This document shows, piece after piece, positions 4,036-63,672 of a stretch of DNA of 64,000 nt (positions are counted from its first letter, which is position 1; the number at the start of each line of letters is the position of its first letter). The translations under genes and the position numbers were made by a program. The DNA lies in NCBI GenBank assembly GCA_015522475.1, contig WAMF01000018.1, positions 1 through 64,000 of the forward strand, written 5' to 3'. This stretch comes from Microcaldota archaeon. Its GTDB lineage: Archaea > Micrarchaeota > Micrarchaeia > Anstonellales > J096. The notes beneath the pieces are model-generated. The model worked only from the letters and a program-made list of their open reading frames with translations, was not told the origin of the DNA and made no database searches.

Positions 4036-4094
4036 ATTTAAATAAATTACACTACATTCTTTAAGACTAACGCCTCTATGTAACGCCTCTATGC

Positions 4095-4102
4095 CTTTAA
4101 TT
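4095..4102 (+). promoter_or_regulatory. TATA box of tRNA-His
   Basis: CTTTAATT is centred about 25 nt upstream of G1 of tRNA-His, the same spacing as in the leaderless protein genes here. A second weaker CTTTAATC at 4106-4113 is too close to act at that spacing. Confidence 0.5.
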
Positions 4103-4123
4103 GGCCTTTAATCATTTATTCGT

Positions 4124-4195
4124 GCCGGGGTGGCGTAAGTGGCAGCGTGAGAGGTTGTGGCCCTCTAGATCCGGGTTCAAATCCCGGCCCCGGCC
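4124..4195 (+). tRNA. tRNA-His (GTG anticodon)
   Basis: Cloverleaf found by eye: acceptor GCCGGGG pairs with CCCCGGC at 4188-4194, the T arm is CCGGG-TTCAAAT-CCCGG, and the anticodon stem AGAGG/CCTCT holds loop TTGTGGC with anticodon GTG. The discriminator is C, as expected for tRNA-His. Position -1 is T, not G, so the G-1 identity base is not encoded and would have to be added. CCA is not encoded and there is no intron. Confidence 0.95.
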
Positions 4196-4249
4196 CTCTT
4201 ATTCTATCAGCAGGCTCGACCATTTAGAAAAATTCTAGCAGAAGAATTG

Positions 4250-42610: not shown

Positions 42611-42683
42611 GGGCCCGTAGTCGAGCGGCTAAGACGTCGCCCTTACAAGGCGAAGATCCCAGGTTCGAATCCTGGCGGGCCCA
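42611..42683 (+). tRNA. tRNA-Val (TAC anticodon)
   Basis: Acceptor GGGCCCG pairs with CGGGCCC at 42676-42682, discriminator A. The anticodon stem TCGCC/GGCGA holds CTTACAA with anticodon TAC, and the T arm is CCAGG-TTCGAAT-CCTGG. D arm GTC/GAC. No intron and no encoded CCA. Confidence 0.96.
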
Positions 42684-57847: not shown

Positions 57848-58834
57848 TTATATAAACTTTATAAGACCTCTGCCTATTTCTGATAGGCGGTCACCAAATA
57901 TTGTGGATGTGACGTTTGTAAATGTAAAGGTTATAGCTAAAGCTATGAGAGGTATTAGGCATTGGTCTGTTATGAGGTTGGCTGTATATGTGGAGAGCTC
58001 TGTAAATATGTTGAAAAGTCTGTGTGAGAAGTAAACTTCAAAGAGGTTGGCAAGGGCTGAGACGTTGCTTGTGGCATTAACAAAGCCAGTTATACCTGAA
58101 AGACTAGAAAGTGTGCATGTCTCGTTGCTCCACAGTGTGCCTAGAACATAAATGTAAGATAAAGGAAGGACGTAGTAAAATGCAAGGCCAACTGCCACCA
58201 TGTAGCCACCGGCGCCTCTCGTAGGAGTAAAGGCTCTAAGCATGAATCCTAGGTATATGAATGTAGGCGCAATGAACGTTGAAAATGCAAGAATCTTTAT
58301 GTAGAGAAGAATAACCATAATCATGAACATTGTCAAAGAAAGGGCATTGTTCAACACAGCTAAGAGAAAGCCGGGCTTGTATGAAATGGGTACATAAACA
58401 CCCTTCGCGCGCGTAGAGAAACCGGCTGAGAAGCTAACGATCGTATTGGATATAACCAATGTGGAAAGCACACCAGTAGGACAGCTAGCAGTAGCATCTA
58501 CAAGATAAGTGGCAATAACACCTATAGGGGGATTTGTTGGGGGATATATCCGAGAGTACTTTGCTACTACTTGAGAATAAACGTGTGGAGAAACGCTGTG
58601 GAGAATTTCCATACTGAAAGGCCTAAAGACGTGTATATCAAAGTGGTACAAAAGAACCATTAAAAGTAGGGCTGCAAATATGTTGACAACCCCTTCTAAA
58701 ATTTCTCTCTTATAAATCTTCTTCAGTCTATCAGATTTAAGAATGACACTCACCATATATATGCCTGCAGCTCCTAAAAAGCCTATGATAGAAAGCATAA
58801 TTGTAATTTGTTGCCATTCTTGTAGTGCCATCAT
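57848..58834 (-). CDS. Polytopic membrane protein with RAFxxxRxxGG loop, paralogue 4
   Basis: 328 residues, about seven to eight membrane helices. N-terminal pattern: a helix, a basic loop KSDRLKKIYKREILEG, a second helix. The family loop is GFMLRAFTPTRGAGGYM at residues 196-212, followed by a membrane segment, and the protein ends SEIGRGLIKFI. The extracytoplasmic loop between helices 2 and 3 contains a Cys (ASCPT) that may pair with a later Cys. Preceded by GGAGG. Last gene of the array. Family not recognised; architecture is reminiscent of VirB6/TrbL/CedA channel proteins. Confidence 0.75.
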   Translation of the reverse strand: MMALQEWQQITIMLSIIGFLGAAGIYMVSVILKSDRLKKIYKREILEGVVNIFAALLLMVLLYHFDIHVFRPFSMEILHSVSPHVYSQVVAKYSRIYPPTNPPIGVIATYLVDATASCPTGVLSTLVISNTIVSFSAGFSTRAKGVYVPISYKPGFLLAVLNNALSLTMFMIMVILLYIKILAFSTFIAPTFIYLGFMLRAFTPTRGAGGYMVAVGLAFYYVLPLSYIYVLGTLWSNETCTLSSLSGITGFVNATSNVSALANLFEVYFSHRLFNIFTELSTYTANLITDQCLIPLIALAITFTFTNVTSTIFGDRLSEIGRGLIKFI

Positions 58835-59010: not shown

Positions 59011-60315
59011 TTACACCAGCCTCGTCAAGTTGGAGATGTCCAAAGGTTCGCCAAAGAAGGCTGTGAACACTTTCAAAGCTGTATTAAGTATAGCGGTTAT
59101 GACCGTAACTGTGAAGGCAAGCTCAAGAACAATGGGTAAGAACTGAATGGAAAAGACTGTCATGGCCATTAATATGCTAAGTGCACCCACTGTAGTAAAT
59201 AATCCCCCTGCAGCCGCGCTCGTCCGCCCGGGAAGCAGGACGCTAATATAAGAGCCCATCATACTTATACCCGCACTACCAAGCGGACCTAGGAGCCACC
59301 ACGGTGAAAGTCCATAGGCTGTAGGCACTAAGCTAGGCTGCTTTGGAGGTGTCACATCCTCTTTTTTAACGGGCTGGCCCGCTTGATCACTCGCTAAATT
59401 CTGGGCATTTTTGCCTACTTTGTTGGTTATATCTTTCGCGAGGTTTTTAATCTTTATAGACGAGATTTTGTTGAGGTTTTTGAGCACATCCCTATAAGCA
59501 GGGGAGGACAGTTCTGGTTTGTTAGTTTGCAAATTGTATCTCACGATCATCTGCCCCGAGAAGAACTCATAGAAGAGGGCTGAAAGAAGAGGCAAGAAAA
59601 GTGCCATGCCCACAGACAAGCCCACAAGCGTCCCACCGATTTTTCTGAATGGAGGGAACGCCCTTAAGATGACACCCAAAGGCAAGAGCACCTCTATGAA
59701 GCCATACGTCATAATATCGTAGAGGTATAGCATGCTAGCGGATACAATCTCTGATGTGGCTATACTTATCATCGTCGTGTTCATCACAGCCTTAATAAGA
59801 CTCCATATACCTTGAAAGGCCATGGGACTAGTGAAGTATATTGTGTGGATGTTTGGTGTAAACACGCCGCCCGCTATAAAGGCCATGATCTGTAAGAAAT
59901 AAAATGAGAGTTTCAGCGTAGCAGTCATCTCCAACCACAGTCTATAGCCTATTGAGTACACGCTTTCTGTGCCTCCGAAGAGAGGTAAGGGTAAGCAGTT
60001 CACTTCGAGCAACACAGGAATTACTACAATAACAAAGATAATGAAGAAGAAGAACTCCGTAAGTTCTGCCTTTGAATAGCTTTGGAGTCGTTTATTACCT
60101 ATAAGAATGCCTAGCAAGTAGAGGAACACCAAAAAGAAGACACCACTCACACCTATGAAGAGGTATGTAGGAAGAAGTGCCTTTAGAGTCCCAACAACGC
60201 TGCCTCCACACACCGCCTTTTCTATGATTGGTGGTCTGAAGACACCCTCAAATCCCAGCATTTCTACGAGTTTTTGCCATAGAGCAGTTGCCGCGCTCCC
60301 TACTGTCCCTGCCAC
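59011..60315 (-). CDS. Polytopic membrane protein with RAFPxxRxxGG loop, paralogue 3
   Basis: 434 residues with about eight membrane helices. The early loop reads NKRLQSYSKAELTEFFF, the family loop GVILRAFPPFRKIGGTLVG is at residues 214-232, and the protein ends PLDISNLTRLV. Between helices near residues 255-330 is a Lys/Asn-rich soluble insert (IKNLAKDITNKVGKNAQN), probably cytoplasmic or exported depending on topology. Its start overlaps the stop of the upstream gene by one base. Function unknown; the same family as its three neighbours. Confidence 0.78.
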   Translation of the reverse strand: MAGTVGSAATALWQKLVEMLGFEGVFRPPIIEKAVCGGSVVGTLKALLPTYLFIGVSGVFFLVFLYLLGILIGNKRLQSYSKAELTEFFFFIIFVIVVIPVLLEVNCLPLPLFGGTESVYSIGYRLWLEMTATLKLSFYFLQIMAFIAGGVFTPNIHTIYFTSPMAFQGIWSLIKAVMNTTMISIATSEIVSASMLYLYDIMTYGFIEVLLPLGVILRAFPPFRKIGGTLVGLSVGMALFLPLLSALFYEFFSGQMIVRYNLQTNKPELSSPAYRDVLKNLNKISSIKIKNLAKDITNKVGKNAQNLASDQAGQPVKKEDVTPPKQPSLVPTAYGLSPWWLLGPLGSAGISMMGSYISVLLPGRTSAAAGGLFTTVGALSILMAMTVFSIQFLPIVLELAFTVTVITAILNTALKVFTAFFGEPLDISNLTRLV

Positions 60316-61982
60316 TATATCACCTTCATTATTGCCGCTATGTCAATGGGCGTACGCATGGCCCTTGATATAACAAACGTCGCACCTATTACGATGTAAA
60401 CGTTTAAAGCAGTGAGTATAACACTAAATAAACCTATTATGACAGCACTCTGTATAGCCACATAGAGTACAAGTCTAGCTACAAGATAGGCTAAGCTCAA
60501 ACCCGCAAAGAAGCGGAAAACACCTACAAATGCTGAAGAGACAAAATAGCGCAAGTTCCTTACAGTCGTGGCAGAGGGAGAACCACTACGCCCAAAATTA
60601 ATACCTAATTTAGAGAAGAAGCTTGCCAAGACACTTCTTATTGTCTTATCTTTTGTCACTACTTGCAAAGCACCCTTACCTAAAAACGCCGTAGTAGATG
60701 CTCCAAATATTGTAGCAATGATACCGCCAGTAAATGTAAGCTGGTGCATGGGAATAGACATATTGTTGGGTGTGTCCCAGCCTATGAATATGGTATAAAT
60801 AGCTGCGTCTATAGAGAGAAGGAAAGGATACAGGAAAAAGAGAGATAAACTTATAGCGATGAGGTTATTGCCTAAGCCTTCTGTGAGCTTTATAGCCCTA
60901 AATATCATACCTATAGGGAATATAACTGTAAGGAGGTAGCTGTCTGTAAAGCACAGAACCAAATATTTGGCCATCCATTCGCCCATAGCTAGGGTCATAA
61001 ACTCCAATATGAATGACGCGCCGTCTATAAGCGGTCTAACGAAATGACCTAAAGGTAAGTCAAAAGCTAGCAAAGAATCTGACGTGAGAGGGAAGTGCAT
61101 AACGATGCCGTAGAGTTGATATACAAGTTCCAAAGAGAGACCTGTAAATGTAGAATAGGCTGCCATCTCAGACACAAGGTTCATTGTGAAGCGTTTTGCA
61201 AAGTCCATGAGATAATAGTTGCCATTCTTGTCTATGAAAGCCTGCATGAGGAATAAGACAAAAACAAAGAGGACAATATTGAATATGATATGCTCTATGT
61301 AGAGGACGAGTTCTGCATAAGCGGAAGCTCCATTGGGGTCGGTTATCTTCTTAAGGAAGTACTTAAAGATGCCTAAAGCTAGGATGAAAACAGACGCAAC
61401 ACCTACGTAAATGCCCACATCCACCATTAAGTAAGGATTGGGATAGCATACGAACTTCTTGTATATGCTAGTAGCGAGATTAACCCACCACTTATGGGTT
61501 GAGTCATACAAACTTTTGGCGAATTTCTCGAGAGGGGAAGGTTGTTTAGGTGGAGCTGGCGGATTGGACGGCGGAGGATTATTAGTGGGACCTTGAACGG
61601 GGTTGGGGTATGAAGGGGGAATAGAGTTAGAAAGTGAATAAGCACGTGAAGTGGGTGAATAACGGGAGCGGCTGTAATGGGCAAAGTAAGTATTTGAGGA
61701 GGATGCAGACAAAGATGGAGATGAAGGTATAGATGAGTGCGAAAGTGTAGTCGAGGTTGTGGAGATGGAAGAGCCATTAAACTTAACATGCACTACCTGG
61801 CCATGCTCGTGCCCAAGCTCAGAAGCTGCCCAAATAGTGGGAAGCGCAAATACCAGCAAGACAAGGAATATCACAAGCGCTGTGGATAGCTGAGATAGAC
61901 GTGCAAATACAAGCTTTGAAAGCTTTGTAGGTTTTGTAGGCTCATATGAATTGTGTGAGACCCGCGATTTCAAAGTCACCAC
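60315..61982 (-). CDS. Polytopic membrane protein with RA-loop, paralogue 2, with Ser/Pro-rich exported N-terminus
   Basis: 555 residues. A signal peptide (LVIFLVLLVFALPTIWAASE) leads to a Ser/Thr- then Pro/Asn-rich extracytoplasmic linker (residues 55-145) not found in the neighbours. The membrane part then follows the family plan, with AELVLYIEHI in the early loop and a diverged central loop GMIFRAIKLTEGLGNNLIA at about residues 358-376. It ends PIDIAAIMKVI. It overlaps the upstream gene by 41 nt. Function unknown. Confidence 0.78.
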   Translation of the reverse strand: MVTLKSRVSHNSYEPTKPTKLSKLVFARLSQLSTALVIFLVLLVFALPTIWAASELGHEHGQVVHVKFNGSSISTTSTTLSHSSIPSSPSLSASSSNTYFAHYSRSRYSPTSRAYSLSNSIPPSYPNPVQGPTNNPPPSNPPAPPKQPSPLEKFAKSLYDSTHKWWVNLATSIYKKFVCYPNPYLMVDVGIYVGVASVFILALGIFKYFLKKITDPNGASAYAELVLYIEHIIFNIVLFVFVLFLMQAFIDKNGNYYLMDFAKRFTMNLVSEMAAYSTFTGLSLELVYQLYGIVMHFPLTSDSLLAFDLPLGHFVRPLIDGASFILEFMTLAMGEWMAKYLVLCFTDSYLLTVIFPIGMIFRAIKLTEGLGNNLIAISLSLFFLYPFLLSIDAAIYTIFIGWDTPNNMSIPMHQLTFTGGIIATIFGASTTAFLGKGALQVVTKDKTIRSVLASFFSKLGINFGRSGSPSATTVRNLRYFVSSAFVGVFRFFAGLSLAYLVARLVLYVAIQSAVIIGLFSVILTALNVYIVIGATFVISRAMRTPIDIAAIMKVI

Positions 61983-63672
61983 CCAAGAAACGGGATGTGC
62001 CCTTCATGGCTCCAATTGTTGCCACTATAGCTATGTATGAAAGAAAACCTCCGAAAAATACAAAGTTCGCCACCATATCGCCCAATGCAATGACTAAATA
62101 GAAGAGGAATTGTGTGTAAGATAAGAAAGACGAAACGCCTATAGCCGCCATGCCTGCAATACCTGCGCCTATAAGAAGGTCTCCTACTGGCGAGGCAGCA
62201 ATAGCTCTCCCTGCACTCACAACAAAGCCGCTGATTCTACCGCCGAAAATTCTGCCAAAGAGAGAACCCACCCCCCTTACAGCTGCCAGACCACCGGATG
62301 CAAGCACGCCCGGCACATAAGGAGCTATTAAGAGTGTGCTTTTAGTGAAGAGGTTGAGAAGCCAGCTTATAACTTTCTTAACTTTGCTTACCCTCTGAGT
62401 TAAGGGAACATTCTTATCAAGAATTTGCTCTGCTGCAGTGATAGCGGGACCTTCTAGCTGCAAAAACTCATTGTACTGTTGCTCAGCTTGCTCTACATCG
62501 TTTTGCTGTTCTTGGGGCAGAGTGGATTGAATGGGAGACGTCGGTATACGACCGTCTGGTGTTAGACGTGTATATGCATAGGCAAAGTTCCAGTTGTTTA
62601 TAGCACCTTTAATTTTTTTGGGTGATCCCGAGAGCCACGTTTGATAATCCTTTACCTCCAGCATAAGCCCACTAGCTCCCGTATATATTCGATTAAGGCG
62701 CATGTGCGTGTGAGGGCTAGGCTCTATAGAAAAGTAAATAGAATCCATGATTGACAACACAGCTGGATAGAAGAAGAAAAGGCTGAGATAGACACCCAAT
62801 ATAGTTCCACCCATCTTTCTCGTTAATGGGAAAGCTCGAAGTATTGAACCCACAAAGACCATTATAACGAACGTCTTCGCTACGAAGTCATATAGGAAGT
62901 ATTGGAAAGCTATGAGTATCATAACCTTCTGGAAGAAGCCCATGTAATATTCAATTATAACGTTGAGAGGCGCGAGATAGCCACCTACCCTTTGAGAGAA
63001 TTCAACACCCTGCTGGCCAAAACTAGAGGCAGTCGTCTCACCCATCTTTGAAAAGATGTAAAAAGAGAGCACATTCCTATAAGCTGCTATGGATTCGACA
63101 AGGAGAGCTCTAAGATATCCATCTCCGACAAGAATAAAGCAAGGATCTATAGTGGAGGATGAAGGAGAAGCTTGAGGAGGTGTAGTGGGTGGCTGCTGGC
63201 CGGGTTGGCCACCATATTGGCTGCCGGAATGACCCCCAGATTGACCTCCTGACTGACCACTAGGCTGGTTGCCAGACTGACCGCCATATATTATACCATT
63301 TAGATATTGCCTGAATATACTCTGTATGCTAACACCTGGACCAAACGATTGACCCCCTGAACTGCCGCCAGAACCTCCAGAAGAAGGTGGCGTTACAAAA
63401 CTCGCTGTGCAGTAGTACTTAGCTCCTATAGGGTCTATGCTTCTCACAGCTGCAGACGATATGTTTGCAAGGCTAGGAAGGAAAAGGCTGAAGAGAAGCA
63501 CGACCAAAACGAGCTCCCATAGCTCGCTCCAAGCAGCCTTTTTATACTTCTCGTTGTTCAAGATATAACCTAAAAAGAGTAGACCCACACCTAGCAGGAT
63601 ACCCCCTACTATTAAATAGGAAAGGTACGAAAGCGCAACGCTATACCAATTGAACCAGCTTACTGCAACCAT
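61942..63672 (-). CDS. Polytopic membrane protein with RAFPxxRxxGG loop, paralogue 1, with Gly/Gln/Ser repeat loop
   Basis: 576 residues. Early loop NEKYKKAAWSELWELVLV, then a long external loop of Gly, Gln and Ser repeats (GQSGGQSGGHSGSQYGGQPG, residues 95-165) bounded by two Cys residues (YYCTAS and DPCFIL). The central family loop is GSILRAFPLTRKMGGTILG at residues 276-294. A second large hydrophilic region (330-420) precedes further helices, and the end is FEIAGLTQFI. GGTGAAA lies before the ATG. Function unknown. Confidence 0.78.
   Translation of the reverse strand: MVAVSWFNWYSVALSYLSYLIVGGILLGVGLLFLGYILNNEKYKKAAWSELWELVLVVLLFSLFLPSLANISSAAVRSIDPIGAKYYCTASFVTPPSSGGSGGSSGGQSFGPGVSIQSIFRQYLNGIIYGGQSGNQPSGQSGGQSGGHSGSQYGGQPGQQPPTTPPQASPSSSTIDPCFILVGDGYLRALLVESIAAYRNVLSFYIFSKMGETTASSFGQQGVEFSQRVGGYLAPLNVIIEYYMGFFQKVMILIAFQYFLYDFVAKTFVIMVFVGSILRAFPLTRKMGGTILGVYLSLFFFYPAVLSIMDSIYFSIEPSPHTHMRLNRIYTGASGLMLEVKDYQTWLSGSPKKIKGAINNWNFAYAYTRLTPDGRIPTSPIQSTLPQEQQNDVEQAEQQYNEFLQLEGPAITAAEQILDKNVPLTQRVSKVKKVISWLLNLFTKSTLLIAPYVPGVLASGGLAAVRGVGSLFGRIFGGRISGFVVSAGRAIAASPVGDLLIGAGIAGMAAIGVSSFLSYTQFLFYLVIALGDMVANFVFFGGFLSYIAIVATIGAMKGTSRFLGGDFEIAGLTQFI
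63185..63300. repeat. Low-complexity Gly-Gln-Ser coding repeats
   Basis: Imperfect short repeats encoding GGQ/SGGQ units inside paralogue 1 (plus-strand view: repeats of TGACC(A/G)CC(T/A)). They form an extended flexible external loop and may vary in length between strains. Confidence 0.7.

Follow-up and report, generated by a model that had tools for sequence, protein, structure and literature searches.

Our analysis indicates that HARP, a single-protein RNase P, has probably replaced the RNA-based RNase P completely in some lineages of Micrarchaeota, which would make these the first archaeal lineages known in this state. The replacement would have happened at least twice, in genera g1 and g3 of family f1 and in genera g17 and g21 of family f8, with relatives that have both enzymes as intermediates; in f1 the tRNA-His gene would also have lost its encoded G-1. 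The window, the 64,000-nucleotide stretch of DNA analyzed here, is part of contig C18 in G000, a draft genome of 0.91 Mb that is 88% complete with 3.97% contamination. We place it in Micrarchaeota on the grounds of one protein match to a Micrarchaeota MAG and of the small genomes of archaeal type. For the lineage of this genome we hold with rather more confidence that RNA-based RNase P is lacking, that pre-tRNAs are trimmed by HARP, that tRNA promoters have two placements and that tRNA-His is near-leaderless without an encoded G-1. This scheme draws on sequences, spacing statistics, the presence or absence of genes and the active-site residues of HARP. The lineage would have lost its RNA-based RNase P, and the product of the HARP gene would act as a single-protein RNase P that trims pre-tRNAs. 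Transcripts of about one third of the tRNA genes, probably including tRNA-His, would start no more than about 5 nt from the mature end, and another third or so would have leaders of about 12–28 nt to be removed by HARP. For tRNA-His the box just upstream (Table 1) would produce little or no leader, and the gene does not supply G-1.

Table 1. Features of the window discussed in the text.
Feature	Position	Strand	Details	Basis
TATA-like box CTTTAATT	4095..4102	+	centre -25.5 from G1; weak, 4.1 bits	sequence and PWM score
CCTTTAAT, box repeat spaced by 11 nt	4105..4112	+		sequence
Position -1 of tRNA-His, T	4123..4123	+	G-1 not encoded	sequence
tRNA-His (anticodon GTG)	4124..4195	+	ARAGORN 4124-4196	Rfam RF00005, 58.1 bits
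tRNA-Val (TAC)	42611..42683	+	strong TTTTTTAAA box centred -28; second short-slot tRNA promoter of the window	
HARP, protein-only RNase P, 231 aa	57073..57765	-	stop codon 57070-57072; PIN_5 domain from residue 34	
Uncharacterized membrane-protein-like gene, upstream of HARP	57848..58834	-		BLASTP, 38% (G001) and 24% (G003) identity

The HARP protein matched TIGR03875 (E 2e-51, 173.1 bits, cut-off 95.3), PF08745 (PIN_5; E 5e-50, 170.1 bits, cut-off 27) and the solved RNA-free RNase Ps 8kd9 and 7f3e (E ~1e-37). In Aq880, residues D7, D138, D142 and D161 are indispensable and an R125/R129 double mutant is inactive (PMC8266387). We mapped the catalytic residues to Aq880 numbering through conserved motifs and found that the equivalents of D7, D138, D142, D161, R125 and R129 are kept in 14 aligned Micrarchaeota HARPs and in comparison with the solved HARPs. 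Judged by its sequence, HARP appears to be the tRNA-trimming enzyme of this organism, and we infer its activity there on the same grounds. HARP is slower than the RNP enzyme, and in vitro some bacterial HARPs show no activity. According to a 2025 survey (PMC12153264), a Hydrogenobacter HARP is about 10-fold slower on pre-tRNAs that bear CCA, so the finding that no tRNA of the draft genome encodes CCA suits HARP.

The membrane-protein-like gene adjoins HARP at the same place in G000 and in two other members of f1 (G001 and G003), which points to vertical descent of HARP within this family; the HARP tree was poorly resolved. In G003 and G023 an RNA ligase gene lies beside HARP in the opposite orientation (L077:2027-3154 and L085:2075-3133). 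Both match the HARP-RNA ligase linkage described in the 2025 survey (PMC12153264).

The archaeal model RF00373 detected no RNase P RNA in G000. We also built a lineage-specific model (R1) from 11 RNase P RNAs found within the order, including one from family f1. R1 scored 44-221 bits in 28 of the 39 genomes of the order, 19 of which were outside model building. Its best score in G000 was 7.6 bits, no higher than the noise in other genomes. Thus neither model detected an RNase P RNA in this draft genome. Among the 39 genomes searched with R1, a credible RNase P RNA was missing from nine of the ten f1 genomes (all but G003) and from G023 and G027 of f8. The RNase P RNA of G003 is short (208 nt), and its neighbors had no match within the compared part of G000. 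RF02357, the model for type T RNase P RNA, found nothing in G000, but likewise nothing in the control genomes.

Of the RNP proteins Rpp29, Rpp30, Pop5 and Rpp21, the search covered the first two. Rpp29 was above the cut-off in 46 of 59 genomes; in this profile search it was missing from G000, G001, G002, G004, G006-G009, G023, G027, G047, G051 and G018, the last of which has an RNase P RNA. Rpp30 went undetected in all f1 genomes and in G023, G027, G047 and G051, with a profile so insensitive that it misses some RNA-positive genomes. For G000 the result is therefore an absence of Rpp29 backed by good controls and an absence of Rpp30 by a weak profile. In the ribosomal operon of relatives, rpp29 is flanked by SUI1 and S17. 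The S17-L14-L24-S4e-L5 operon of G000 is on the HARP contig, where sampling of stretches placed the S17-to-SecY part at about 77-86 kb. Before S17 there is a gene of the metallo-beta-lactamase fold (recognized by eye from its HxHxDH motif) and then a CTTTTTAAAT promoter-like box. Thus rpp29 is absent from its usual place beside S17; that it is missing from the rest of the genome is the result of the profile search. The ribosomal operon is interrupted just before S17 (L226, G000:C18:76943), and the SUI1/L29/S3 part was not located on the stretches sampled.

Both RNase P RNA and Rpp29 were missing from 10 of the 39 genomes of the order, in two families. HARP was found in 16 of the 39, split evenly between f8 (eight genomes) and f1 (eight of its ten). 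It was present in 9/10 genomes that lack RNA and Rpp29 compared with 7/29 of the others (Fisher p 4e-4, kinship ignored). The tenth genome, G009, is one of two HARP-less f1 members, both just 77% complete. The other, G005, has Rpp29, while RNase P RNA and HARP were not detected; since Rpp29 is present and no HARP was detected, G005 probably keeps the RNP enzyme. The genomes with HARP but neither RNA nor Rpp29 fall in two families, which suggests at least two replacements.

Because G000 is a draft MAG, single absences prove nothing, and the argument rests on several genomes. In principle, MAG incompleteness, binning or contamination could explain the absences, given the completeness and contamination of G000 and the low completeness of the HARP-less f1 members. 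We consider this highly unlikely, as RNA and Rpp29 are each present in 28 of the 29 RNP-positive genomes and both are gone in 10 genomes of two families, and as one 153-kb contig bears HARP, tRNA-His and the ribosomal operon. It is also improbable, though less so, that a diverged or minimal RNase P RNA like that of Pyrobaculum is present and was missed, with HARP as an accessory as in euryarchaea. A minimal RNase P RNA is known in Pyrobaculum, and archaeal RNase P RNAs can shrink, as the G003 version of just 208 nt illustrates; the negative result with RF02357 came without a positive control and is uninformative on this point. However, R1, which was built in part from the same family, found nothing above noise in nine of ten family members, and Rpp29 is missing from eight of these nine. 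The absence of Rpp29 counts against a minimal RNA, whose protein partners would be expected to persist.

The preliminary description had placed a box about 25 nt before G1 of tRNA-His, at the spacing of the leaderless protein genes of the window, and both observations were borne out. In a 9-mer metric the tRNA-His box is centered at -26, and in the leaderless protein genes of the window the boxes cluster at -26 to -29 with a peak at -28. When this box was scored with a PWM derived from the tRNA promoters of the genome itself, we found that 11% of shuffled upstream sequences reach its 4.1 bits in the slot. Since the spacing is about that of leaderless protein genes, tRNA-His is predicted to be near-leaderless, and a transcription start at G1 or within about two bases is a plausible and fair reading. 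The CCTTTAAT copy at 4105-4112 is too close to G1 for directing a full-length tRNA. Inspection and scoring placed an AT box, its core resembling TTTAA/TTAAA, at -26 to -33 in 8/9 tRNA-His genes of the family (the one described here included; G002 is the sole exception), and several of these boxes score just 4-7 bits with the G000 PWM. The tRNA-His promoter region (4069-4112) is filled by 13-nt and 11-nt direct repeats, with AACGCCTCTATG at 4069 and 4082 and CCTTTAAT at 4094 and 4105.

Across the genome, the spacing of tRNA promoters is mixed. The PWM was learned from the tRNA upstream regions of G000 (consensus CTTTTTAAA), and on leaderless protein genes the same PWM placed boxes at -26 to -29, with a peak at -28. 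Strong boxes were found at -24 to -33 in 13 of 43 tRNA genes (1.3 expected from shuffles) and at -40 to -56 in 15 of 43 (1.8 expected), excesses that are somewhat inflated because the PWM was trained and counted on the same upstream regions. Both slots were filled in two of the 43 genes, and several tRNA genes have their sole good box at -60 or beyond. We infer the transcription starts of the tRNAs from these box positions. Taking -28 as the spacing that gives no leader, the short slot would yield leaders of about 0-5 nt and the long slot leaders of about 12-28 nt. Leaders of at least 12-28 nt are thus predicted on many pre-tRNAs and would need 5' trimming. The earlier suggestion that such trimming could be dispensable therefore did not hold up, given the 15 long-slot promoters and the HARP gene in the window; leaderless transcription is plausible for tRNA-His but, from the box positions, does not hold for the tRNA genes of this genome in general. 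One tRNA match (L037, G000:C23:4550-4728) spans 179 bases, suggesting a long intron; there are others that span 98-121 bases.

Nanoarchaeum equitans is without RNase P, and its tRNA promoters lie 26-27 nt upstream so that no 5' leader is made. We give very little credence to a similar state in G000, in which no tRNA would be made with a leader, RNase P would be superfluous in any form and HARP would do some other job. The spacing of tRNA-His, the 13 short-slot tRNA promoters and the failure to find RNase P RNA would all agree with it, but not the strong boxes at -40 to -56 in 15 of 43 tRNAs, the several tRNAs with boxes only at -60 or beyond, or the retention of HARP in nine of the ten genomes without RNA and Rpp29. 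A full Nanoarchaeum-type reading was thus rejected on the mixed spacing (13 short and 15 long of 43), and, as to the absence of an RNase P enzyme of any kind, the window itself holds a HARP gene. For tRNA-His alone, a leader-bearing transcript from a box further upstream is a distinct, if lesser, possibility, the box at -25.5 being then a by-product of local tandem duplications. That box is weak and within reach of chance, and the region is packed with the direct repeats. The candidate distal boxes are CTTTAAG at 4059-4065, with a leader of about 34 nt, and CATTTAAAT at -85. The latter reaches 9.9 bits but may serve the divergent gene, whereas CTTTAAG is even weaker than the proximal box (2.7 bits), and the presence of a box at -26 to -33 in most tRNA-His genes of the family argues for the near-leaderless start.

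The preliminary description had also noted T at -1 of tRNA-His and that G-1 is not encoded, and base 4123 is indeed T. The gene keeps C73 (position 4195) and does not encode CCA. Among f1 genomes, G-1 was encoded in none of nine tRNA-His genes: the base at -1 is A in eight and T in G000, and C73 is kept. Outside f1 the comparison consisted of two f8 genomes, G041 and G055, and both encode G-1. G003 has an RNase P RNA and yet a tRNA-His without encoded G-1, so loss of G-1 may predate loss of the RNP enzyme. It had been proposed that a Thg1-like enzyme must add G-1. In contrast, we found no Thg1 (Pfam PF04446) in G000 or its 58 relatives, while the Methanosarcina control was positive. With Thg1 undetected and G-1 not encoded, C73 and the anticodon are probably what HisRS recognizes in tRNA-His. 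In 44 tRNA genes of the genome the base at -1 is A in 21, T in 15 and C in 8, and never G, tRNA-His included.

HARP-bearing archaea have been described as all encoding RNA-based RNase P too (PMC10941002, PMC8266387, PMC6380272), and a 2019 survey found HARP in no DPANN genome (PMC6380272). Micrarchaeota are not named among the main archaeal orders with HARP given in the available part of the 2025 survey (PMC12153264). We found no paper in the literature on RNase P with Micrarchaeota, and a HARP-only state in Archaea appears to be undescribed in the literature searched; such a lineage would be new against the published surveys. If true, HARP would have a housekeeping role in Archaea, and a HARP-only clade with sister genera that have both enzymes would form a natural series for the replacement of a ribozyme by a protein. 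The data also raise the question of tRNA-His identity without an encoded G-1 or detectable Thg1.

One close likeness is to Aquifex aeolicus, where tRNA 5' processing is by HARP only; the two share a one-protein PIN_5 enzyme whose catalytic Asp and Arg residues are identical, and in both RNase P RNA is not found. G000 differs in belonging to the Archaea (Micrarchaeota), in having relatives that hold both enzymes and so represent intermediate states, and in that the activity of its HARP is predicted from sequence. Euryarchaeal HARPs are dispensable. The protein is homologous in Haloferax volcanii and Methanosarcina mazei, and an RNA ligase adjoins HARP in two Micrarchaeota genomes, but in those euryarchaea the RNP enzyme is kept, whereas in G000 RNA and Rpp29 are missing. 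With Nanoarchaeum equitans G000 shares the lack of a detected RNP RNase P and a set of tRNA promoters whose spacing fits transcription from the mature end; it differs in its mixed spacing, in the presence of a protein RNase P and in the tRNA-His whose G-1 is not encoded. Some Alphaproteobacteria likewise have a tRNA-His with G-1 not encoded and no Thg1 found, but G000 keeps C73 and its G-1 state is known from the gene, not the mature tRNA.

Three large minus-strand ORFs at 59011-63672 (434, 555 and 576 aa) had no Pfam or NCBIfam match. A Hef-like helicase gene at 1328-3046 matches the Hef nuclease model in its helicase part alone (positions 10-568 of 781). In a protein search, a secretion ATPase showed 53% identity to a protein of a Micrarchaeota MAG.
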